Below are positions 48-12,000 of a stretch of DNA of 64,000 nucleotides, one piece after another. The DNA is from a bacterium. GTDB taxonomy: Bacteria; Zhuqueibacterota; Zhuqueibacteria; Residuimicrobiales; Oceaniaggregativiventaceae. A program made the translations under genes and the position numbers. The stretch covers positions 1 to 64,000 of the forward strand of contig JAKQNP010000046.1 in assembly GCA_029565675.1 (NCBI GenBank). The letters run 5' to 3'. The notes below the pieces were generated by a model that was given only the letters and a program-made list of their open reading frames with translations, was not told the origin of the DNA and did no database searches. The stretch's first letter is position 1; every line of letters begins with the position of its first letter.

Positions 48-137
48 TGTCCGAATCTTTAGTGAAACACTGTCCGAAAGTTTAGTGAAACGCTGTCCGA
101 ATCTTTAATGAAATGGTGTCCGAAAATTTTTGAATTT
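48..137. repeat. Tandem 23-bp repeats, probable IS21-type element end
   Basis: Three consecutive 23-bp units begin at 48, 71 and 94, each starting TGTCCGAA and containing TTTA(G/A)TGAAA. A fourth, decaying unit begins at 117. Multiple short repeats starting with TG at an element terminus are a known trait of IS21-family insertion sequences. No transposase lies in the window to the right, so the body of the element would lie to the left. The assignment rests on repeat architecture only. Confidence 0.5.
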
Positions 138-250: not shown

Positions 251-1198
251 ATGATAATTAATACAAAAACATTAGTTTTGGTAAATAATTTGATAGTAAA
301 TAACAACTTAAATCTGGATGCCAATGAAATCGGGCTAAGAATATTCATGGATGCAGCTTATGATGAAGCAGATTTTGATTTTTATGTTGAGCACTATGCT
401 AAACTTGTCAACTATGAATATAACCGGTGTGCATACTTAATAACAATGCTGATTTCTTTTGCCAATGTGGATGGTGATTACAGTCCTCCGGAAAGAGATG
501 CAATAGATAGAGCAATTAACATCCTTCGTCTTCCATCGGATTTGCATGATCAGATTCTGTATTGTGAGGTTATCGCACAGAAAATTAATGAACTGCCTGG
601 ACCTATGTTTGGGTCAGGGTTTTTTATCAATGATAAAGGATTTATCATTACCAATGATCACGTCATTGGTTACCGCAAAAATATAAAAGTCAGGGCTTAT
701 GACAAATTCAAAAACGCCGATGTTATTATGAGAGATAAGGAGTCTGACCTTTGTCTACTGCACATCGATGTTGGTAGCGTCAGTACTCCGTTTTGTACCA
801 AACCTATTCTTGAGGGACAGGCTATTTTTACTTACGGATACCCCGAGCCAAGATCTATGGGGTACTCCCCAAAATTGACGAAAGGAGTAATCAGTTCCAA
901 GTTTGGAGCAAAAGACGATGCACATCGAATGCAAATTGATGCAGCGATTCAACCGGGTAATTCAGGTGGGCCTGTAATAGACTGTGATAGCGGTGCTATT
1001 GTTGGTTTGGTTTCCTCGCGGTTAAAAAAGGCACAGAAAGCAAACTATGCGATAAAAGCAGATCGGATATTATCATTTCTTGGAAAGATGGAAGTATTAC
1101 GGAAATCAGTTGATATCAGTGATAACTCACCGAGGGATTTTACACAAATTGTAGAGGATGTGAATAAATCCACGGTTCAGGTAATTTCCTGCAAATAA
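251..1198 (+). CDS. TerB-like/trypsin-like serine protease fusion
   Basis: Protein of 315 residues. The C-terminal half is a DegP/HtrA-type S1C trypsin fold. His137 sits in TNDHVIG, Asp166 in ESDLCLL and Ser238 in QPGNSGGPV, so the catalytic triad is complete. There is no PDZ domain and no signal peptide, which suggests a cytoplasmic protease. Residues about 60-95 (LITMLISFANVDGDYSPPE) resemble the acidic TerB-type helical domain of tellurite/stress systems. The reading frame can be extended to a TTG at 182, but ATG 251, just after a G-rich stretch, gives a more natural N-terminus. A sigma-factor gene follows closely. Cargo of an integrative element. A role in stress or phage response is inference. 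Confidence 0.75.
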   Translation: MIINTKTLVLVNNLIVNNNLNLDANEIGLRIFMDAAYDEADFDFYVEHYAKLVNYEYNRCAYLITMLISFANVDGDYSPPERDAIDRAINILRLPSDLHDQILYCEVIAQKINELPGPMFGSGFFINDKGFIITNDHVIGYRKNIKVRAYDKFKNADVIMRDKESDLCLLHIDVGSVSTPFCTKPILEGQAIFTYGYPEPRSMGYSPKLTKGVISSKFGAKDDAHRMQIDAAIQPGNSGGPVIDCDSGAIVGLVSSRLKKAQKANYAIKADRILSFLGKMEVLRKSVDISDNSPRDFTQIVEDVNKSTVQVISCK

Positions 1199-1255
1199 TC
1201 AATGTTTTTTGGCAAAAATTGGAAATCACGAGTATATAATTGTAGGAGCCTTGTC

Positions 1256-2056
1256 ATGTCACGAAACGAAAGTCCACTTTTAAATGTGATGACTGAACTA
1301 AATGGCAGGTTATATGGAGTTGCAAGAAAAAGTGGTCTCGATGTTGAAGATGCGAAAGACATCGTTCAGGAGGTGATGCTTAGCGTATTGGAGCAGATGG
1401 ATAATAACCCAAAATTGCAGAATGACTTTGAAAAAGATATCAACTACTTTAAAAACTATCTTTTTCGAACACTTTTCAATAAAATTATTGATTTTAAAAA
1501 AAGCAATAAGAAGGGTATAACTGAGGCACCACCTAATAAGCGATCGAATGACCCAAATCTGAAACCAGGCCAACAGCCCATTATCTTTATACCGCTTGAG
1601 AAAAACCCATCATTACCAGATTTCCAAGATCCAGTTCAAAAACAGCAGAGGGATGAAACTTTGAAAAAAGTATTACAGGAATTTAAAGAGAAAGCGTTGA
1701 GTGACCAGGAGCGTTCCTTTTTGGAATTATTTCTGGAGCTTGCTGATTTATCTGAAGGCATCAACATTTCAGAAATTGCCCGACTCATGGGAATCGCACC
1801 TGATCAAGGGCATAATATTTGGAAGCGGATCAGGAGAAAGTTTAATGATTTTAATGCTAAAGATGGAAGACTGGAAAATGTCGCCGATGGTGCAGCTATC
1901 CTAGATATCGGAATCGGGTCATTGGTTAAGGATATTATTAGCCCTTCAGAGGAACTGGATGAGGAATATTTGTCTGCAGGCAGAGAGATAACAAACAATG
2001 TGTTTGCAAAATTGGGTGTAGATGCCTTAATAAAATTCTCCCGAATATTGAAATAG
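1256..2056 (+). CDS. ECF-type sigma-70 family RNA polymerase sigma factor
   Basis: Protein of 266 residues. The N-terminal region 2 shows the typical 'ARKSGLDVEDAKDIVQEV' helix and a following YLFRTLFNKIIDFKK helix. A low-complexity linker precedes region 4, which has LSDQERSFLELF followed by a helix-turn-helix around ISEIARLMG. The start at 1256 is chosen because TAGGAG lies 7 bases upstream; an in-frame ATG at 1202 has no such site. It lies 57 bases after the protease gene, so the two are probably co-transcribed. No anti-sigma factor is visible. The protease may modulate it, but that is inference. A strong terminator follows directly. Confidence 0.8.
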   Translation: MSRNESPLLNVMTELNGRLYGVARKSGLDVEDAKDIVQEVMLSVLEQMDNNPKLQNDFEKDINYFKNYLFRTLFNKIIDFKKSNKKGITEAPPNKRSNDPNLKPGQQPIIFIPLEKNPSLPDFQDPVQKQQRDETLKKVLQEFKEKALSDQERSFLELFLELADLSEGINISEIARLMGIAPDQGHNIWKRIRRKFNDFNAKDGRLENVADGAAILDIGIGSLVKDIISPSEELDEEYLSAGREITNNVFAKLGVDALIKFSRILK

Positions 2057-2062
2057 CATACG

Positions 2063-2091
2063 AAGCCCGATCATTGATCGGGCTTTTTTTT
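2063..2091 (+). terminator. Rho-independent terminator after sigma factor gene
   Basis: Perfect GC-rich stem (AAGCCCGATC / GATCGGGCTT) with a 3-base loop, followed by a run of T. It closes the protease-sigma transcription unit. Confidence 0.9.
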
Positions 2092-2375: not shown

Positions 2376-2828
2376 ATGTCTACACAAAGCAAGTCTCTGA
2401 TTTTGGATTCTCTGAATTCAAATGGTCAGAAACGAATAAGAAAATCGAGCGTGAAAACTCTCGATCTGGGCCAGTTGGCTTTTAGCAAATCCGACTACGA
2501 GATGCTGGAAAAATTGTGGCATGATTATCATCATGATTGCGTGTCTTTGGAAGAAGCAGTGAAAAAGATAGTCATGGCGGATCTCAAGAAGCTAATCGGA
2601 ATCATGAAGATTTACAATATTTACAAAAAACGAAGAGCTTCAGAGAAGCTTGACGACATCTTGAATGATTGCAGAAACAAGGGGCTTCCTATTGCTGATG
2701 TGGAGCCTAGTGTAAGACAAATGCAAAATGAATGGCTTAATCGAAAGCGAGCACTTGTAGAGCAATTAAAGAAAGGTCAGCACGAAGGTACCTTTTCAGA
2801 AGATAACCTCGAGTTGAATATTGCATAA
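2376..2828 (+). CDS. Hypothetical protein of integrative element
   Basis: A 150-residue, highly charged, helix-predicted protein without signal peptide or membrane segment. A good AAAAGGAGAA precedes the ATG. The N-terminus is rich in Ser/Lys/Asn, and the C-terminal third (about residues 105-140) looks like a basic amphipathic helix. It sits directly upstream of the excisionase-like and integrase genes. It could be an element-maintenance or DNA-binding accessory protein, but I recognise no family. Confidence 0.6.
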   Translation: MSTQSKSLILDSLNSNGQKRIRKSSVKTLDLGQLAFSKSDYEMLEKLWHDYHHDCVSLEEAVKKIVMADLKKLIGIMKIYNIYKKRRASEKLDDILNDCRNKGLPIADVEPSVRQMQNEWLNRKRALVEQLKKGQHEGTFSEDNLELNIA

Positions 2829-2910: not shown

Positions 2911-3081
2911 ATGGAACAAAGACTGTTACAGATCATTGATGCTGCTGTCTATCTCGGAATGTCGAAGGGTGCTTTATACCAGCTCGTCCACCGCAAGCAT
3001 ATTCCTGTTGTTCGCATCGGCCGGGCGCTAAGATTTGACAAAGAGTCTTTAAACCGATGGATAGCCGAACATCAGAACTGA
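2911..3081 (+). CDS. Excisionase-family helix-turn-helix DNA-binding protein
   Basis: Protein of 56 residues carrying the MerR/AlpA-like winged HTH found in excisionases (HTH_17 type). The pattern runs IDAAVYLGMSKGALYQLV, then a wing RIGRALRFDKESLNRWI. The start at 2911 has GGAAGGGA just upstream; the frame stays open back to 2821 but overlaps the previous gene. Its position immediately before the tyrosine integrase fits a recombination-directionality factor that binds the element's att arms. A strong terminator follows. Confidence 0.75.
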   Translation: MEQRLLQIIDAAVYLGMSKGALYQLVHRKHIPVVRIGRALRFDKESLNRWIAEHQN

Positions 3082-3116: not shown

Positions 3117-3166
3117 GATTCGGTATAAGAATGATATAGAATTAACAAATGATGGAGGAGATCAAC

Positions 3167-4315
3167 ATGGCAAAGATTTACGAAAGAGACTACAAGAACC
3201 GGATCACCTATTACGCGCACTTTTCAGTACGTGGGAAACGATACCGGATTCGTCTGGATGCGCAGAATCGTGCTCAGGCCAAGAAATTAGCCGCTGACGC
3301 TGAGTATCAGATTCTTACCGAGCACTTTGAAATTCTCAAGAAAACCAAAAAAATGAAATTATGTGAGGTGGCGGATCAGTATATTGAGTTCGCAAAATCA
3401 AACAAACGATCCTGGGACCGTGACATCGTATCGCTTAGGAATATATTACACATGGAGATCGATGGCAGAAAACTTGGGCAATGTGACATCGATTCCATCA
3501 AAGTCAGCGATATACAAAAGTATCAGATTAGGCGAAAGAGAGAGCTTGATGAAAAATTCGATCGCAAAGGCATCGCTGAGGAAGATCGCAACTATGCCAC
3601 AATCAACCGGGAGCTCGCTTGCCTGAAACACATTTATTACCTGGCCATCGAATGGGAGTTTACTCTCAAGAATCCGGTAGTCAGCAAAGCAATCAAGTTC
3701 TATAAAGAAAGGGAACGAAAGCGAACCTTGAGCGATGCTGAATATTCGATGCTGGTATCATCAGCTACGGGTCATCTGCGATTGATACTTCTTATTGCCT
3801 TGAATACAGGGATGCGCCTTGGCGAAATCCTGAGTCTTGGCTGGAATGACATTGATTTTACCGGACGAAAGTTTTATATTACACATACCAAGACTGACGA
3901 GGATCGGGAAGTGCCGATTAATAGCTTCTTATTTGATATTCTGATAAATGTTAATAAAGATTCAGAATTTCTTTTTATTAACCGGGATGGCAAGCCTATT
4001 AAATCCATAAAGACAACCTGGCACTCGCTGCTTCGTAGATTGGCAATTGATAATTTACATTTTCATGATCTGCGGCATACGGCTGCTACCCGCATGGCCA
4101 GGGCAAAAGTAACCGAGTCGGTGATTGCGATGATATTAGGTCATAAACGCGCATCGATCACCAGCCGGTACATCAATCCTCATTGGGAGGAGATGGTCGA
4201 TGCAGCTGAGATATTGGGAAGGATTTGTCACGAATTTGTCACGAAGGCTGAGTATGAGGGCATTGGACCTGGTCATAGTGCATTGTTTAATAATAAAATA
4301 AAGGATGTTATTTAA
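3167..4315 (+). CDS. int: Tyrosine recombinase/phage-type integrase
   Basis: Protein of 382 residues with the full tyrosine-recombinase layout. An N-terminal arm-binding region is followed by a SAM-like core-binding domain (about residues 65-180) and a C-terminal catalytic domain. Visible catalytic residues are Arg217 (NTGMRLGE), Lys242 (HTKTDEDRE), His300 and Arg303 (HDLRHTAA), His326 (LGHKRASIT) and the nucleophile Tyr335 (SRYIN). The start is set by GGAGGAG before ATG 3167. The gene ends a few bases before a tRNA 3' fragment, the classical position for an integrase that uses a tRNA attachment site. All key residues are intact, so the enzyme is probably active. Confidence 0.95.
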   Translation: MAKIYERDYKNRITYYAHFSVRGKRYRIRLDAQNRAQAKKLAADAEYQILTEHFEILKKTKKMKLCEVADQYIEFAKSNKRSWDRDIVSLRNILHMEIDGRKLGQCDIDSIKVSDIQKYQIRRKRELDEKFDRKGIAEEDRNYATINRELACLKHIYYLAIEWEFTLKNPVVSKAIKFYKERERKRTLSDAEYSMLVSSATGHLRLILLIALNTGMRLGEILSLGWNDIDFTGRKFYITHTKTDEDREVPINSFLFDILINVNKDSEFLFINRDGKPIKSIKTTWHSLLRRLAIDNLHFHDLRHTAATRMARAKVTESVIAMILGHKRASITSRYINPHWEEMVDAAEILGRICHEFVTKAEYEGIGPGHSALFNNKIKDVI

Positions 4316-4331
4316 GCCGCAGACCTTTATG

Positions 4332-4374
4332 CTCATAATCCGCAGGTTGTAGGTTCGAATCCTACCGGGCCCAC
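4332..4374 (+). other. attR-like site: 3' half of a tRNA gene with CAT anticodon
   Basis: The segment holds an anticodon loop CTCATAA, a T-arm GTAGG-TTCGAAT-CCTAC and a 3' acceptor strand CGGGCCC plus A. The 5' half is absent: the sequence upstream of the loop does not pair with TCCGC, so this is not a functional tRNA. A 3' tRNA fragment directly after an integrase is the hallmark of a chromosome-element junction. Orientation implies that the element lies to the left and that the intact tRNA lies beyond the left edge of the window. The crossover probably falls in the anticodon-loop region. No encoded CCA follows. Confidence 0.85.
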
Positions 4375-4378
4375 GAAA

Positions 4379-4414
4379 AGAGCCCCTGATTTCAATGAAA
4401 TTGGGGGCTTTTTT
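4379..4414 (+). terminator. Terminator downstream of tRNA fragment
   Basis: AGCCCC...GGGGCT stem with an inner ATTTC/GAAAT helix and a TTTTTT tail. It is probably the original terminator of the host tRNA gene, left on the chromosomal side of the insertion. Confidence 0.85.
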
Positions 4415-4842
4415 ATTGGTTTTGTACTGATCATTCCATCGCCATCGGAGTATTACGAGGCAATGCGATGAAAGAAGATTACCCAAGGATGATATTACCG
4501 GGGGACATCGACTATGAGTAATAAAACGATTACATTGTTTAATAAGCTGAAAAAAAGCCAATGATCCTATCTTTGACCCGCGGTTAAAGAATGAGTGCAA
4601 CGATTCACCTAATTTTGAACAATTGAATCGGGATGCAGTTAAATCCTTGCATATTTTGCCTGAGGTATTAAACACTATTATGATAATCGAATTAGTAAGA
4701 ACTCCTGTTGTTAGGGATTCATGTTCGGAGTTCTTATGCCAAGAAAATATATAAGATATTTCTTGCTTTTAATTTGATGGGTAATTATACTGAATAAAAT
4801 ATTAGGGTCAATACCAGAGAGGTAATGGCTTTTAACAGAGAA
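4415..4842. other. Gap with no supported gene
   Basis: AT-rich stretch of over 400 bases after the att site. Only very short frames occur, for example 17 residues from ATG 4468, and none has convincing support. It may be degraded host or element sequence. No repeats were recognised. Confidence 0.5.
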
Positions 4843-4884
4843 GGCTCAAATTGGTTTATTAGAACTGATTTGAGCCTTTTTTTT
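4843..4884 (+). terminator. Rho-independent terminator
   Basis: A nine-base-pair stem GGCTCAAAT / ATTTGAGCC is followed by eight T residues, with a 16-base loop. It lies in the gap before a TPR/membrane protein gene. No gene directly upstream explains it, so it may mark the end of a decayed transcript. Confidence 0.75.
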
Positions 4885-4925
4885 GAGAGGTTAATTGGCG
4901 GGATGTGTATGAGGAGGGTATGAAG

Positions 4926-5981
4926 ATGGAAGATGCCACTAAATCCGAATTTTTAAAAGCCGAGTCCCTATTTAATGAAGGTGTAAAGCTGTATGAAAAA
5001 GAAGACTATCAACTGGCAGAATTAAAATTAACCGAAGCGCTGACAATCTTGCCAAAATCAGAGGATATTGTCTATAATTTATTATTAGTATATATAAAAA
5101 AAGAAGAATATAATAAAGCCTGGCAATTTGTGGAAAAGATAAAACCAAAGCATAGAAAAGAACTCATTGCGTATCTAGAAAAAATGGGTTATCGGCATGA
5201 TAACCCCGACAGTGATCCACATGATATTGTAGACAATCATACACTTTCTTATGAAGAAATGTCACCAAAAGATGCTGAGGTCGAAGCTTTCAAAACAACC
5301 AACGAATGGTTTGTTGTAGTCCAGACTGCAGACGGACAACGACGGCTCTGCAATAAGAAACAGTTCAAGGACATGTTTAGAAACGACATCCTCGATGGAC
5401 TATTAAACTCCGAGAGCACAGTGGATGTCCACGTTAAAACCAAGGAGGGGCAGTGGAACAAAACATCCTCGCCCCTTGGACAGTTTGCAAGGGGGTATTT
5501 CAAGCTGAGAGTTTTGTATGAGCCGGTGTGGAGTCACGCGATGGCTGGCCTGAAATGGGGAGCATTAATTGGAATTGGTTTGAAGTTTCTCGACACACTG
5601 ATTTTGCTCGGATCGGCAGATCCCACCTTTGCCATTCTGTTCCTTGTTGTCGCAGGTGTGTGTGCCATCCCTCGAATAGGTATTGTGGCGGTGGTTGTTG
5701 TTTCAACTGCGATGTATAAGTTCACGAACGCGAATCTTTTCATAACGCTTCTTTCAGTCATTCTCACCGGTTCAATACTTGGCTGTTTGCCTGGAATGGC
5801 GATTGGTGGAGTTGTCGGCCTTGCTCGTAAAAAGAGTCTACCACACGCTAGGGATGCCAAATCAGAGCGAGATGCTTCTGTACTGAAAGCGGTTGTTCTC
5901 CCCTTGTTGGGAGGAGCAGGTCTGTGGGCATTATACCTTTTCGTTTTCAATCCTTGGTTGATGGGTGTAATGAGCAAGTAA
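4926..5981 (+). CDS. TPR-like protein with C-terminal membrane domain
   Basis: Protein of 351 residues. Residues about 5-95 form TPR-like helices (AESLFNEGVKLYEKEDYQ). A middle domain (about 125-195) has alternating aromatic/charged residues like small GYF- or SHOCT-adjacent modules, but no family is certain. The C-terminal part has several hydrophobic segments from about 205 to 345, with glycine-rich GMAIGGVVGLA helices. ATG 4926 is preferred because GAGGAGGG stands 8 bases upstream. The gene is followed within 5 bases by an attC-like site in the same orientation, so it may be an integron gene cassette. Function unknown. Confidence 0.65.
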   Translation: MEDATKSEFLKAESLFNEGVKLYEKEDYQLAELKLTEALTILPKSEDIVYNLLLVYIKKEEYNKAWQFVEKIKPKHRKELIAYLEKMGYRHDNPDSDPHDIVDNHTLSYEEMSPKDAEVEAFKTTNEWFVVVQTADGQRRLCNKKQFKDMFRNDILDGLLNSESTVDVHVKTKEGQWNKTSSPLGQFARGYFKLRVLYEPVWSHAMAGLKWGALIGIGLKFLDTLILLGSADPTFAILFLVVAGVCAIPRIGIVAVVVVSTAMYKFTNANLFITLLSVILTGSILGCLPGMAIGGVVGLARKKSLPHARDAKSERDASVLKAVVLPLLGGAGLWALYLFVFNPWLMGVMSK

Positions 5982-5985
5982 TTAC

Positions 5986-6060
5986 GCCTAACAACCGCAT
6001 CAACTCGGACTGGCAATTCCGCTGCACTCCATTGCCAGCTGGTTATGCAGGGCGTTAGTG
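5986..6060 (+). other. attC-like recombination site (solitary integron cassette end)
   Basis: The stretch opens GCCTAACAACCGCATCAACTC and closes GGTTATGCAGGGCGTTAG. Its two halves form an imperfect palindrome (CTGGCAAT / ATTGCCAG, GCAT / ATGC, TAAC / GTTA) with unpaired bases, as in folded attC hairpins. It starts 4 bases after a stop codon, the normal place for an attC in a cassette. No integron integrase or second attC was found in the window. Confidence 0.65.
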
Positions 6061-6087
6061 CGTAATAATTACTGAAGGAGAGCTAAA

Positions 6088-6732
6088 ATGAGAACCTGCT
6101 TAAATTGTGGAAAACCAGTATTTGATGCAAAGGAGTTTATTTCAGAGTGTCGAAAAAATAATCTTTCGGTAAACGAAAACACTTTGGAAATCACATTAAG
6201 TCCTGGTGGAATGTATGTTGGAAATTTTAGTGACTATGCGCAAAGGCTACAAGAAAAAGAAAGAATGAGAGAAAGAGCAATTCAAATTCAAAATAAAATG
6301 GCGATGTTCTGTGAAGATTGCAAAAAAGTTTATTGCTTAAGTTGTGTGAGCTCTTTTGGCAAAATACGTGGAAATATGCGTGGATGTATTGCTTGTGGTG
6401 GCAAAATGACTGAAATAAGAGAACAATATGTAACATTAAAATATGGAGAACCTAAAATCACCAGCCAAGGCATAGAGGCCAATATGGAAGTGCAAGGCGA
6501 GGAAAACATCGGTCCAAAGCTCAATCAATTTTGCTTCATGTGTAAGAAGGAATGGGGTCCTTCAGCCGATCATTGTTTTGACTGCAATACGTCTGATACA
6601 TTGGTTAGAATAAAAAAACATGGTTTTTTCAAAAAGAGAATCGAATATTTTGATCAAAATGGAGAGGTGATTTCTTCTGACGAATTGCTGAAAATGCATG
6701 ATAAATACGCTGCGACCAATAAAAACGATTAA
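6088..6732 (+). CDS. Hypothetical zinc-ribbon protein
   Basis: Protein of 214 residues with several CxxC pairs. These are CLNCGKP near the N-terminus, then CEDCKKVYCLSC and CIACGG mid-protein, and CFMCKKEW...CFDCNT near residues 150-170. A charged helical segment rich in Arg/Glu lies around residues 50-75. GAAGGAGAG precedes the ATG. There is no signal peptide. The next gene also begins with a zinc ribbon and follows after 68 bases, so the two may act together. I recognise no named family. Confidence 0.65.
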   Translation: MRTCLNCGKPVFDAKEFISECRKNNLSVNENTLEITLSPGGMYVGNFSDYAQRLQEKERMRERAIQIQNKMAMFCEDCKKVYCLSCVSSFGKIRGNMRGCIACGGKMTEIREQYVTLKYGEPKITSQGIEANMEVQGEENIGPKLNQFCFMCKKEWGPSADHCFDCNTSDTLVRIKKHGFFKKRIEYFDQNGEVISSDELLKMHDKYAATNKND

Positions 6733-6800
6733 GTTTGTGCGCTGCCATAGAAAAATTGCAGAACCGGTTCTATTCGTTTTGTTACCTAAAGGTAGCAAAT

Positions 6801-8462
6801 ATGCGACAATTGTATTGTTCTAACTGTAAAAAATGGATTGATGAACCAGATTGCTCAATGGGTGGTAGAAAACGAGATGCGTGGGATTCTTTTAACCATA
6901 AAGTATGCCCGATATGTTCTCACTCACTCTCTAAGGATAAGCCATTCCATCCAGAGTCCTCTAAAATTGTAAAGCGAGATATTCCATATTCTACTTGGTA
7001 CTCTGCATACCTTAATTCCCCGAAGATGGAGCAAATAGTGATCGATCCTGGTCCAGTCCTCTTTGAAGAATCAGGACGTCGACTCATTTTCTCTCAAAGG
7101 TATGTCCGAATTTACCAAAATCGCTGGATAGTCATACTCAACAAGTTCGATGACGATGATACGCCCGCATTGGTCATTAAAGCAAATGAATCGACTGATT
7201 TTTTAAAAGACCATTATTTCCAGATTGGATTCTCTTTAATAAAAGGGAGGCATGGCAATCTCTTTGCCTTATTCGTTGAATTTGAAGGGCCTTATCCTTA
7301 TAATTGCCCCACAAAACCTCTCATTGTTTTTGAAGATGTTTTGGGTTTGGACTGTGAGGAAATGAGGAACGAAATTTTAAAATGTATCGATACAGATTGT
7401 TACCATGTTTTTCTCGTAGAGGGCGGAAGCGCGACGGTAGAAGGTGATCGCATGGTAGCCAAACCTGTTGAGGTGAAATACCAAGCCTTGATTAAAATTA
7501 GAAGGGATTGTCGTGATAAGCTTATGGCGATGACCCGCCAGCATTTCACAGAACATTTAAACATCGGAGAGCGCAATTGGGATTTTCAAAAATCTATTAA
7601 TGAGTTCGTTTTGAAGATGCCCATACAAAAGCAGCCCTTACTGCCTAAACCTGGTACTAATTTATTTTGTTTCAGGTCAAATACGAATCCCAAAGTTAGA
7701 TCATTAACCAAGAACTTTCTTGATCCCAATGGGGAGATTGAGGCAGATCATGTTGTGATCTTTGTTCGGGGAGATCCAAATTGGAGAGAGCTACCCCAAC
7801 CAATCAAATCTTATCTAGATGAACAGGCTAAAGAATGTGGCATTGTGATAACCGATAAAACAACTTTCCAGTCATATCGAAAATCTGAAAAAATTGTTGA
7901 TGATGCACAGCAGGGTCAAAACATCGAATTGATAGCTGTCATGGAGCTTGCAGGAAAGCTTGGCACGAAAATGCAGATGGTTGATGATTATCATCATAAA
8001 AAACTTTTAGCCAAGGAATTGTATTGTCCTCGGTCTGGATCCTTTCTTAATAGGTCACCTGATTGTGCCATAGTTATAATTTGCACATCTGGCACAACTG
8101 CACAAAAAAATGATATCCCTGATTATTTTAAAAATGCGATCGCCCTGGAATATTCCTATAATAACGATTCTACTGCATCGAAAGATATAGAGGTTATATG
8201 TAAGAAAATTAGTGCACTGAAGCAGCTACATTCTACACTGCAGCAGTCAAATCTGAATGTTTTACTTGTTCGATTTCCAATGCGAGAGTCTAAAGTATAT
8301 GCAATTGCGAATAAAACTGGAGATCCTTTGTTGTATAACCTGTCTATATCGGAAAAGTTTGGAGTAAACACAGAGCAGATTGAATTATTTTTTGATCAAG
8401 TATCAATGGAAAATCTTTTAAAGAATGTCTCAGGCAATGTCATAAAGAACTTGGAGTGTTAA
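6801..8462 (+). CDS. Hypothetical large protein with N-terminal zinc ribbon
   Basis: Protein of 553 residues. The N-terminus (LYCSNCKKW, later CPICSHS) has two CxxC knuckles. The rest is soluble and lacks signal or membrane segments. The middle part includes 'EFEGPYPYNCPTKPLI', an Arg-rich helix near residue 245 and a 'VVIFVRGDPNW' strand. The C-terminal part has 'CAIVIICTSGTT', like an alpha/beta fold. ATG 6801 is preferred because AAAGGTAG precedes it; upstream in-frame codons to 6735 are possible. It pairs with the preceding zinc-ribbon gene. No family recognised. Confidence 0.6.
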   Translation: MRQLYCSNCKKWIDEPDCSMGGRKRDAWDSFNHKVCPICSHSLSKDKPFHPESSKIVKRDIPYSTWYSAYLNSPKMEQIVIDPGPVLFEESGRRLIFSQRYVRIYQNRWIVILNKFDDDDTPALVIKANESTDFLKDHYFQIGFSLIKGRHGNLFALFVEFEGPYPYNCPTKPLIVFEDVLGLDCEEMRNEILKCIDTDCYHVFLVEGGSATVEGDRMVAKPVEVKYQALIKIRRDCRDKLMAMTRQHFTEHLNIGERNWDFQKSINEFVLKMPIQKQPLLPKPGTNLFCFRSNTNPKVRSLTKNFLDPNGEIEADHVVIFVRGDPNWRELPQPIKSYLDEQAKECGIVITDKTTFQSYRKSEKIVDDAQQGQNIELIAVMELAGKLGTKMQMVDDYHHKKLLAKELYCPRSGSFLNRSPDCAIVIICTSGTTAQKNDIPDYFKNAIALEYSYNNDSTASKDIEVICKKISALKQLHSTLQQSNLNVLLVRFPMRESKVYAIANKTGDPLLYNLSISEKFGVNTEQIELFFDQVSMENLLKNVSGNVIKNLEC

Positions 8463-8797
8463 TAAAATATTTTTGTCAGCAAATATTCGTGTTTTAAGGT
8501 GTGCTTAAATTTGCCTGTGTGAATTAAAAAATAATGTTCAACCATCGGCTGGTAGGGAGGGCCGCTGGTTCGATTTAATTTTAGAAATTATTCTTAATAT
8601 GTCGTGACTTCCGAACAGCCGTAGCGTTGTCAATTATCCAAATTGACTACTCTCAAGTTAATGAGTCCAACCAGGCATAACCTAACCTTACCCTCTATTG
8701 TGGTCATACTAGACTGTACCGAGTTTGACAATTTTGTTCTTGAGCAAACCTAAAAATCGGGAGTAGAGTCGGAACTAATTGATCATCGGAGAGAATT
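8463..8797. other. Intergenic region with one imperfect hairpin
   Basis: 335 bases without a supported gene. An inverted repeat AACCA-CGGC / GCCG-TGGTT at 8540-8570 is followed by AT-rich sequence and may act as a weak terminator for the upstream gene. The 10-mer CTCTATTGTG at 8693-8702 recurs upstream of the TIR-RDD gene. Confidence 0.45.
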
Positions 8798-9307
8798 ATG
8801 CAAATAAATTCAGGAATAATGTCGCCAGGTAAGATTCTATTTTCCTTTGAAGGTAGGATTAATCGTGCCAAATTTTGGCTTTATTCACTCCTACTTATCC
8901 CAATTTGGCTTATAGGGTTGATAATCGATATTTCGGTATCTGGTGAACCAGGCGTCTTTTACTGGCTTGCTGTTATACTCTGCTTTTGGCCTTCTTTAGC
9001 ACTTAATGTTAAACGATGCCATGACCGCGATAAATTGGGTTGGTTCTATTTAGTTACCTTTGTCCCAATCGTTAGTCTTTGGTATTTGGTAGAAATTGGA
9101 TTTCTGAAAGGTACAGATGGCGATAACAGATTTGGGCCTGATCCTTTAGGTCAAGCTAGTGAATACAATGAAACATTAAAATGTGGCGATGATTCTGTAT
9201 CCTACGTTTGTTCTGATTGTGGTGCCGAGGTTTCCATTGATGATAAAACTTGTCCGAAATGTGGTTCTGACATAAGTGAAATCGAAGATGATGAAGATGA
9301 GGTTTAA
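8798..9307 (+). CDS. DUF805 membrane protein with C-terminal zinc ribbon
   Basis: Protein of 169 residues. Residues about 13-120 match the DUF805 (YhaH-like) family: FEGRINRAKFWLY, several membrane segments, NVKRCHDRDKLGW and the terminal GTDGDNRFGPDPLG. The C-terminus adds a zinc ribbon (CSDCGAEV...CPKCGSDI) and an acidic tail. DUF805 proteins are inner-membrane proteins of unknown role. The zinc-ribbon tail makes this a domain-fusion variant. GGAGAGAATT precedes the ATG. It stands alone, without an operon partner. Confidence 0.85.
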   Translation: MQINSGIMSPGKILFSFEGRINRAKFWLYSLLLIPIWLIGLIIDISVSGEPGVFYWLAVILCFWPSLALNVKRCHDRDKLGWFYLVTFVPIVSLWYLVEIGFLKGTDGDNRFGPDPLGQASEYNETLKCGDDSVSYVCSDCGAEVSIDDKTCPKCGSDISEIEDDEDEV

Positions 9308-9517
9308 TCAATTCCGATGGAGAAAGAAAAGAAGAAAAAAGGTTTGAGGCATTTGTTGAGACTTTAATACTAAACGCAAACGCTATTCACAAGAGCAAAA
9401 TAACCTTACCTTCCTCTGCGAGTTTTATCGAAATCAATACGATGTGCTAAATAAATACGAACCTATACATGTTTATGTAACTCAAAATAGCACAAAGTGC
9501 ATACAAGGAGATTAATA

Positions 9518-10636
9518 ATGAAAAGACTTGTTGTATTGACAGTTTTATTTCTTGCTTTTTTACTGATGAATTGCGCCTCAGTAAACAGCGAATGGAAAAA
9601 GGCTTTGAAAGCTGACACAATAGAAGCATACGAAACCTTTTTGGTGAAATACCCAGAAAGCGAACATAGCGATTATGCAAAAAAATTCGTTGATAGATTG
9701 CAGTGGAAAAAGTGCCAGGAACAAAACACAGTTAAGTCTTATCAATACTACATCTCTCGCTTTCCCAAAGGCGAAAAAATCACAGAGGCCGAAGAAGCGT
9801 TGGATAAATTGCAATGGAGTAGATACCAGGAACAAAATACAATTGAAGCTTATCAGGAATATTTATCACTAAATCCCGAAGGACGATTCTTTGGGCAAGC
9901 AATTAAGAACATAGACAATATACAATGGCAAAAAGCCCAACAAATAAATACAATAGAAGCATACCAAGACTATCTGAGTTTGGGGCAATGGCAAAAAGCC
10001 CAACAAATAAATACAATAGAAGCATACCAAGACCTTCTGAATTTCAGATATCAAATTCATTACGAAGAAGCAAGAGCCGCGCTGGGAAATCTGATTTGGA
10101 AAAAGACGGTCTCAATCGATACAAAAGAAGAATATACAAGGTTTGCTCAAACATACCCGAATTCTAACTATGCCACAGAGGCAGCAATAAGAGCAAGCCT
10201 ATCGATTAAAGCAAAGACAACAAATAAACGACAAATACTTGCTCATGGTATGCACTTTTTGGGACAACTTATTCCTGACCAAGAAATTTCAGTAAAACCT
10301 GGAAATTCTTTTCTCGTTGTCGAATTTGCTTTTTCCCCTGTTGCAGATTTCATTTTAAAGGCTGAAGATATTGTATTAATAGATGCGGAGAATAAAGTAA
10401 TCCAAGGAGCGAAGGAATTAGGAGAGGATAAGTGGGAGATGAATCAGCTTATGATGGAGCAAGCAGCATCGCTCTCGAATATAAGTTTTACTGGGAATGT
10501 TAATAGTACGTTGTTTTTTTATAAAGAAACTGAAGTAACAATTCGATATCTTTTTGAAATACCAAGCAAAAATCTTCCCGGCTCATTATTGTCGGTTAAA
10601 AACATCACTTTTTCACTTGATGGTAGAATCTATTAA
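9518..10636 (+). CDS. Repeat-containing lipoprotein
   Basis: Protein of 372 residues beginning MKRLVVLTVLFLAFLLMNC, a signal peptide with lipobox LMNC, so probably anchored to a membrane. Residues about 25-220 consist of degenerate units with the pattern W-x-x-x-x-x-x-N-T-I-E-A-Y-Q-x-Y-L, similar to TPR-type helical repeats. Two units are nearly identical at DNA level (period 63 bases). The last 150 residues look like a beta-rich domain related in pattern to DUF4352-type extracellular domains. AAGGAGAT sets the start. Function unknown; a scaffold role is inference. Confidence 0.7.
   Translation: MKRLVVLTVLFLAFLLMNCASVNSEWKKALKADTIEAYETFLVKYPESEHSDYAKKFVDRLQWKKCQEQNTVKSYQYYISRFPKGEKITEAEEALDKLQWSRYQEQNTIEAYQEYLSLNPEGRFFGQAIKNIDNIQWQKAQQINTIEAYQDYLSLGQWQKAQQINTIEAYQDLLNFRYQIHYEEARAALGNLIWKKTVSIDTKEEYTRFAQTYPNSNYATEAAIRASLSIKAKTTNKRQILAHGMHFLGQLIPDQEISVKPGNSFLVVEFAFSPVADFILKAEDIVLIDAENKVIQGAKELGEDKWEMNQLMMEQAASLSNISFTGNVNSTLFFYKETEVTIRYLFEIPSKNLPGSLLSVKNITFSLDGRIY
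9923..10033 (+). repeat. In-frame 63-bp tandem duplication inside lipoprotein gene
   Basis: The 48 bases at 9923-9970 recur identically at 9986-10033, a 63-base period (21 codons). This duplicates one structural unit (WQKAQQINTIEAYQD). Exact identity points to a recent event. Confidence 0.9.
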
Positions 10637-10842
10637 TTGTGAGTTAATTTAGCGATGTTTACAGTGTTGGGAGAGCGGCATTGCAAAGGTTGTAGGTTAT
10701 AATTATAAATTATTGACCAACAACTGTCCCAAATTTTTATAAACCTGCAGTGTACAGCCAACCAGCATGTTTGACAAAAACAGAGCCTGATGATTATTCT
10801 TGTATTTACTCTCTATTGTGATAGATTAAGTCTGGAGGCAAA

Positions 10843-11856
10843 ATGGCCCATGATGTTTTCATTTGTCATTCACACGAAGATAGAAATATTGCCTTTGAAC
10901 TCTGTGAAAAACTGGAGAAAGAGAATTTTCAGTGTTGGATAGCACCTCGTAATATTCCCCCGGGTGAAGACTGGCCAAGCGCTATTATGAAAGCGATCGA
11001 ATCGAGCAAAATCCTTATTTTGATCTTGTCATCCCATTCCAAAGCTTCACCACAAGTCCTGCGCGAGCTGGAGCGTGCCATCACGAGGCGTATTTTCATT
11101 CTTCCATTGCGATTTGAAAATATGCAACTGGATGGTGCCTTTGAATATTTATTGGGTCCCTGTCAAATTTTTGATGCTTTCCCGTTAGCGATCGATAAAT
11201 ATCTTGATCAAATTATTTCAACACTAAAATCGCGCTTGAGCAGATCGGATTCTATAGGTTTACCGGATCACGCAGAGCAAACCAGTTACAAAACTTTTCC
11301 AGTCCACACAGGTACACCACCCCCGTATGTCTATACCCCGACCGGTCCACAAATCCGGCCATGGGTTCGCTATTGGGCACGTACACTTGATTTGCTCTTT
11401 ACAGCCATTATCCTTTCGATTATCGTTTTGATCCTATATGAACCTGTTTTAGAAAAAACTCCAGATATCGTCCTCACCATTGCCTCAGTGCTTTTGTTGA
11501 TTGGCGCGGAAACCTTCATGCTCTCTTCTTGGGGTACCACTCCTGGAAAAACCTTGCTGAACGTTCGAGTCAGAACCAGCGAGGGAACCAAATTGACTCT
11601 GAAGGAATCCTTCAAGCGCTCGCTCGGTGCCGCCTTGCAAGGCTATGGCCTGGGCATCCCCATTGTGTCCCTGATCACGCAAATTACCTCTTATTCCCGT
11701 TTAAAGGAAAGAGGCCGGACGGCTTGGGATGAAAAAGGAAATTTCGTTGTTTCTCATCGCATCGTGGGAATCGGCAGAATTCTGGTCATTGTCCTGATTT
11801 TTGTAGTTTTTCTCTTTTTTATGTTCCTTGGTTTGATGCAAGAAGGTCAGATTTGA
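10843..11856 (+). CDS. TIR domain-RDD membrane domain fusion protein
   Basis: Protein of 337 residues. Residues 1-135 form a TIR domain: HDVFICHSHED, CWIAPRNIPPG, an ILILILSSHS strand and SPQVLRELERA, where Glu75 occupies the place of the catalytic Glu of TIR NAD hydrolases. A proline-rich linker (about 145-165) leads to an RDD domain (about 170-320). That domain has RYWARTLDLLF, GTTPGKTLLNVRV and three to four hydrophobic helices, so the TIR domain is membrane-tethered. TCTGGAGG precedes the ATG. Bacterial TIR proteins often act in anti-phage defence or in signalling, but no other defence gene is adjacent. Confidence 0.85.
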   Translation: MAHDVFICHSHEDRNIAFELCEKLEKENFQCWIAPRNIPPGEDWPSAIMKAIESSKILILILSSHSKASPQVLRELERAITRRIFILPLRFENMQLDGAFEYLLGPCQIFDAFPLAIDKYLDQIISTLKSRLSRSDSIGLPDHAEQTSYKTFPVHTGTPPPYVYTPTGPQIRPWVRYWARTLDLLFTAIILSIIVLILYEPVLEKTPDIVLTIASVLLLIGAETFMLSSWGTTPGKTLLNVRVRTSEGTKLTLKESFKRSLGAALQGYGLGIPIVSLITQITSYSRLKERGRTAWDEKGNFVVSHRIVGIGRILVIVLIFVVFLFFMFLGLMQEGQI

Positions 11857-12000
11857 CCGTTATTGATTGGTCTCCTGCATCTGTTATCCTGTTCGACATG
11901 ACAAAATATTTTTCGGCCTGCACGCAAATCGTTTTATTTCCCGACCGAGTTTTGTTGTAGGCCAGGCGTCTTTGCAAGGACGAGAATGGGTGATGATCTT

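Follow-up and report, generated by a model that had tools for sequence, protein, structure and literature searches.

The window analysed here is a stretch of 64,000 bases, positions 1-64000 of contig C31, from a genome of 4.43 Mb in 64 contigs. Close to its left end two genes lie on the forward strand, one for a TerB-trypsin protease (251..1198) and one for an ECF-type sigma factor (1256..2056). The protease was delimited by Pfam and NCBIfam profiles, a shuffle control, the catalytic triad and an alignment of the C-terminal tail. Read from the ATG at 251 it has 315 amino acids, and its Trypsin_2 domain (PF13365, residues 121-253, window 611..1009) scored 78.2 bits against a Pfam cut-off of 27.6. 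The TerB match ahead of it (PF05099, residues 29-96, window 335..538) scored 25.1 bits in the whole protein, slightly above the Pfam gathering score of 24.4. When the first 118 residues were scanned separately the match rose to 27.6 bits (E 3.7e-6), and none of 10 shuffled versions of that segment matched TerB; the match covers profile positions 45-110 of 118 only. The triad is intact (H137, D166 and S238), so that the complete triad behind a TerB-like domain described in an earlier note, which was made from the letters alone, held up.

The same note had the protease lacking both a signal peptide and a PDZ domain, and this was also borne out. The Pfam PDZ model gave no match in the protein, no membrane or export signal was evident, and the maximal 19-residue hydropathy is only 0.89, which argues against a transmembrane segment. 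On the NCBIfam DegP/HtrA family model the protease scored 78.7 bits, far below the cut-off of 416.2, which places it outside that family. Its C-terminal tail reads VNKSTVQVISCK. The N-terminus is uncertain: the reading frame continues upstream without a stop as far as base 134, the ATG at 251 has no well-spaced ribosome site, and a TTG at 182 is an alternative start that would give 338 amino acids, with which TerB still scores above the cut-off. The AlphaFold models of the protease and the sigma factor, both built from single sequences, were of too low a quality for use, and that of the protease (pLDDT 33.5) was uninformative on the TerB fold. A PDB sequence search with the protease N-terminus returned chance matches only.

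The second gene encodes 266 amino acids, with a sigma2 region, a long proline-rich linker (about residues 85-125), a sigma4 region and a C-terminal extension of about 63 residues (about 204-266). It scored 55.1 bits on TIGR02937 over residues 16-196 (NCBIfam cut-off 42.9) and 28.7 bits on Sigma70_r2 (Pfam cut-off 24). By these profile matches the product is a genuine ECF-type sigma factor and a putative initiator of transcription, in agreement with the ECF-like gene that the earlier note had placed 57 bases downstream of the protease. Published ECF sigma factors without anti-sigma factors bear linkers and C-terminal extensions of this kind (PMC8999054). On the type III-E sigma model, where the cut-off is 100, the protein reached only 28.5 bits and so falls outside that family.

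The two genes share a strand, and 57 bases separate the protease stop at 1198 from the sigma factor ATG at 1256. An AGGAG ribosome site precedes this ATG inside the gap, and an intrinsic terminator with an 11-bp stem and a T run (2062..2086, forward strand) begins 6 bases 3' of the sigma factor stop. Given this spacing, the ribosome site ahead of the sigma gene and the terminator behind it, a two-gene operon is the simplest reading of the layout, and a likely one. Upstream of the operon are 23-bp tandem direct repeats (TGTCCGAA..TTTAGTGAAAC), in three copies at 48..116 with a partial fourth to about 129, where 0.1 matches were expected by chance against the three found. The repeat had no match in viral contigs. 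These repeats are possibly regulatory sites or the end of an insertion sequence; a search for an insertion-sequence origin found no partner end anywhere in the window.

No anti-sigma-like gene was found from base 1 to the integrase described below, whether among the open reading frames or by Pfam. To this extent the claim that the sigma factor has no anti-sigma gene stood, but base 1 of the window is also the end of the contig, so on the upstream side the absence can be judged across just 250 bases ahead of the protease gene. An anti-sigma gene could sit past the end of the contig. If it did, the TerB-trypsin protein could be the cytoplasmic protease that cuts the anti-sigma factor, comparable to DegS acting on RseA in the envelope. 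Canonical ECF sigma factors do come with anti-sigma partners, and the ECF-linked trypsins from probable Bacteroidota described below bear, by inspection, an anti-sigma-like N-terminus before a membrane segment. Yet the sigma gene is the last of its unit and is followed by the terminator, and the repeats at 48-129 suggest that the unit begins near base 130-250. We consider this explanation unlikely.

Downstream of the terminator are the genes and the right end of an integrated element, all on the forward strand where a strand applies. They comprise an open reading frame for a protein of 150 amino acids with a weak PHROG match only (2376..2828), an excisionase-type helix-turn-helix protein (2911..3081; HTH_17 49.8 bits, TIGR01764 46.3 bits), a tyrosine integrase (3149..4315; Phage_integrase 114.5 bits, phrog_1 215.5 bits) and, directly after the integrase, a right attachment site of 94 bp (4332..4425). 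The same 94 bp recur without a mismatch on contig C64 (L046, 4847-4940), where they make up the 3' part of an intact tRNA-Met and the stem downstream of it. Inward from this tRNA, contig C64 encodes a TIR and FGE-sulfatase-like protein and an AEP-type primase of 870 amino acids with a P-loop, and then ends; this region (L046, 1-4846) is the left half of the element. Both halves have a GC content of 0.40-0.43, compared with 0.54 for the chromosome. The integrase, the excisionase, the 94-bp direct repeat of tRNA-Met and the low GC together identify an integrative element, and the protease-sigma pair thus sits in a satellite-like, low-GC element integrated at tRNA-Met, the middle of which is unassembled. 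Among the element proteins scanned there was no match of note to Cas genes.

When the primase was used to look for related elements in the phylum, only unrelated RT-AEP proteins from CRISPR-like loci were returned. Five genomes of the phylum (L105-L109) encode proteins of about 930-980 amino acids that have an N-terminus resembling reverse transcriptase as well as an AEP-like match, and that adjoin cas1/cas2-like genes in apparent type III CRISPR loci. Low GC also runs on beyond the attachment site (window 4426-11900, to about 11 kb), perhaps as a second island, which encodes a TPR protein, cysteine-rich zinc-ribbon-like proteins and a TIR-like membrane protein (10843-11856).

Since the pair shares its element with another conflict-type gene, its setting is richer than the earlier note could have known. 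The same setting is consistent with a different role for the pair, in which the TerB-trypsin protein is a conflict effector that cleaves host or phage proteins on infection or stress and so halts growth, while the sigma factor only drives the genes of the operon or the element. Trypsin domains have been proposed as effectors in many conflict systems (PMC7159879, PMC8195603), TerB has been proposed as a signal sensor in Ter systems that counter superinfecting phages (PMC7824862), and in PADLOC the trypsin part of our protease hits the RT-Protease and Avs1b models. These PADLOC matches, however, reflect only a generic similarity among trypsins. The visible part of the element showed neither a conflict NTPase nor an effector-associated domain, and the other members of the trypsin clade that were sampled appear, by inspection, to be secreted or membrane-anchored. 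We therefore regard an effector role as somewhat unlikely.

None of the genomes sampled contained a second example of the exact TerB-trypsin and sigma pair. The protease was searched in about 1,250 genomes in partly overlapping sets (81 genomes of the phylum itself, 388 relatives drawn from across Bacteria, and two further phyla with 395 and 392 genomes), which yielded ordinary or other modular trypsins only. The sigma factor was searched in sets of 99, 82 and 395 genomes, with three weak matches apart from the window itself, and in one scan of a genome collection the sole match was a FecI-like sigma factor of Chitinophagales. Among plasmids and phages, tblastn gave no sigma factor matches and no TerB-trypsin. 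Viral contigs held no orthologues when searched with peptide patterns for the protease and the sigma factor; with an alignment of the trypsin clade 80 viral loci were kept, none of which had a TerB N-terminus or, by the sigma profile, an ECF neighbour. The expectation that the two genes would co-occur in another genome, on which the earlier note had staked its proposal, was thus not borne out in this limited sample. As the searches covered samples, the result speaks for rarity of the pair and not for its uniqueness.

The cargo of integrative elements of this type turns over fast. The two genes could accordingly be independent cargo whose adjacency is incidental, with the sigma factor regulating the element and the protease an unrelated accessory gene. 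The absence of the pair from every second genome sampled fits such an origin, as does the resemblance of the sigma factor to a phage sigma family (phrog_1740, 39 bits). The 57-base spacing, the shared strand and the terminator placed after the second gene argue the other way, and so does the recurrence of trypsin-ECF neighbours at other loci. On balance we find incidental adjacency improbable.

This recurrence came from the relatives of the protease. In an alignment its best non-DegP relatives have the triad intact, lack PDZ and mostly have a short tail near the C-terminus (for example NHVYIIEVD, DYVFMIKVYN and DFTVQITCR, compared with the tail of the window protease given above). In the tree the window trypsin falls within a clade of 33 PDZ-less modular trypsins (support 0.96), apart from DegP-like sequences, and it shares with them the triad, the short tail and the lack of PDZ. 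The N-termini of the clade vary and may be of lipoprotein type, Sel1 repeats, or an anti-sigma-like segment followed by a membrane helix; the anti-sigma-like segment was called by eye, as Pfam gave no significant match there. A TerB N-terminus occurs in the window protease only, among the clade members examined. One locus (L126) encodes a Sel1-repeat protein fused to a trypsin of this clade.

At 8 of 17 loci from the phylum of genome G142, a gene for an anti-sigma-like segment, a transmembrane segment and a trypsin immediately follows an ECF-type sigma gene in the same orientation (L048/L077, L052, L117, L119, L120, L121, L122 and L124). The phylum is probably Bacteroidota, to judge from SusC/SusD-type genes and a TIGR02985 match, and two of the sigma proteins were confirmed by TIGR02937 (71.6 and 72.4 bits). 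Three of the eight loci have a peroxiredoxin neighbour in common, so the eight represent to some extent a single conserved locus and should not be counted as independent events. The profile with which neighbouring sigma genes were sought was built from these loci and the window, and a distant ECF gene beside other trypsins could therefore be missed. Even so, eight probable Bacteroidota loci that pair a clade trypsin with an ECF gene indicate that protease-ECF coupling recurs. In the literature searched, no description of this Bacteroidota pair was found.

The window pair resembles the Bacteroidota pairs in that a PDZ-less trypsin of the clade, with a similar C-terminal tail, adjoins an ECF-type sigma gene. 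It differs in gene order, since the sigma gene comes first in the Bacteroidota pairs; in the protease, which is membrane-anchored there with an anti-sigma-like N-terminus where the window protease has TerB; and in the sigma factor, which has about 190-200 amino acids there and no C-terminal extension. The Bacteroidota trypsins also form a distinct subclade of the tree. Within the tree, the window trypsin shows no specific affinity to this ECF-linked subclade (support for the nearest grouping 0.17, for the wider one 0.63).

Several known systems combine similar parts. In type III-E CRISPR systems, cleavage of Csx30 by Csx29 relieves the inhibition of an ECF-type sigma factor (PMC10028731). This Csx29-Csx30-CASP-sigma system likewise encodes a cytoplasmic protease together with an ECF-type sigma factor at a single locus, but its protease Csx29 is of the CHAT type and is activated with Cas7-11, whereas the window has a trypsin with TerB. 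EACC2/peptidase conflict systems, some of whose peptidases are trypsins, also carry an ECF sigma gene next to them (PMC8195603); of their constant EACC2 and caspase domains, and of the DUF1822 TPR gene they often have, none was seen beside the pair described here. For ECF54 sigma factors, regulation by neighbouring peptidases in place of an anti-sigma factor has been proposed (PMC8999054), and with peptidase genes nearby and no anti-sigma factor they are like the window pair; the neighbours described for ECF54 are subtilase, carboxypeptidase and CHAT proteins, with no mention of a TerB-trypsin (PMC8999054). The HtrA proteases DegP and DegS share the trypsin fold and triad with the window protease, and DegS works in an ECF (RpoE) pathway, but the window protein has no PDZ domain and no evident membrane or export signal, and it scores well under their family cut-offs. 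According to PMC8999054, only one ECF sigma factor, AntA, has been shown experimentally to be controlled by degradation of the sigma factor itself in the absence of an anti-sigma factor, in this case through ClpXP. Set against these systems, TerB-trypsin with an ECF sigma factor appears to combine known parts in a new way.

The explanation we favour, tentatively and with a probability of about 35%, is that the pair is a two-gene regulatory operon on the tRNA-Met-integrated element in which a protease gates a sigma factor. The TerB domain of the cytoplasmic, PDZ-less trypsin would sense an intracellular signal and gate the protease, which would cut the sigma factor either in the long linker between sigma2 and sigma4 or in the 63-residue C-terminal extension. 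Alternatively, the protease may cut an inhibitor of the sigma factor. The sigma factor would then switch on genes of the element or the host. This reading builds on the domains and triad, the operon layout, the mobile context and the clade proteases that neighbour ECF genes elsewhere, and its logic has precedent in the Csx29-Csx30-sigma system, in ECF54 with its peptidases and in the EACC2/peptidase systems with ECF. Against it count the lack of a second pair in the genomes sampled, of a specific grouping with the ECF-linked subclade and of a shared gene order, and the possible anti-sigma gene past the contig end.

The earlier note had imagined a sense-and-cleave switch that frees or destroys a regulator. 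Its ingredients were found in place, namely the domains, a protein without membrane segments, an operon-like layout and a mobile element with a TIR-FGE protein; what failed to appear, within the limited sample, was the exact pair in a second genome. Sense-and-cleave control of the sigma factor thus remains plausible from sequence. The more specific proposal is that this is a novel two-gene switch on a satellite-like element, where a TerB sensor and a cytoplasmic trypsin would directly activate or destroy an ECF sigma factor, without an anti-sigma factor, and so couple the detection of invasion or stress to transcription. That proposal we hold to be rather doubtful.

A compact, soluble protease-sigma pair of this kind would be an easy model in which to ask whether a dedicated protease can switch an ECF sigma factor. 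If the protease-gated reading is true, the theme of ECF-linked proteases would extend from type III-E CRISPR to other mobile elements. The trypsin clade beside ECF genes in the eight probable Bacteroidota loci offers a broader lead, and a testable one.
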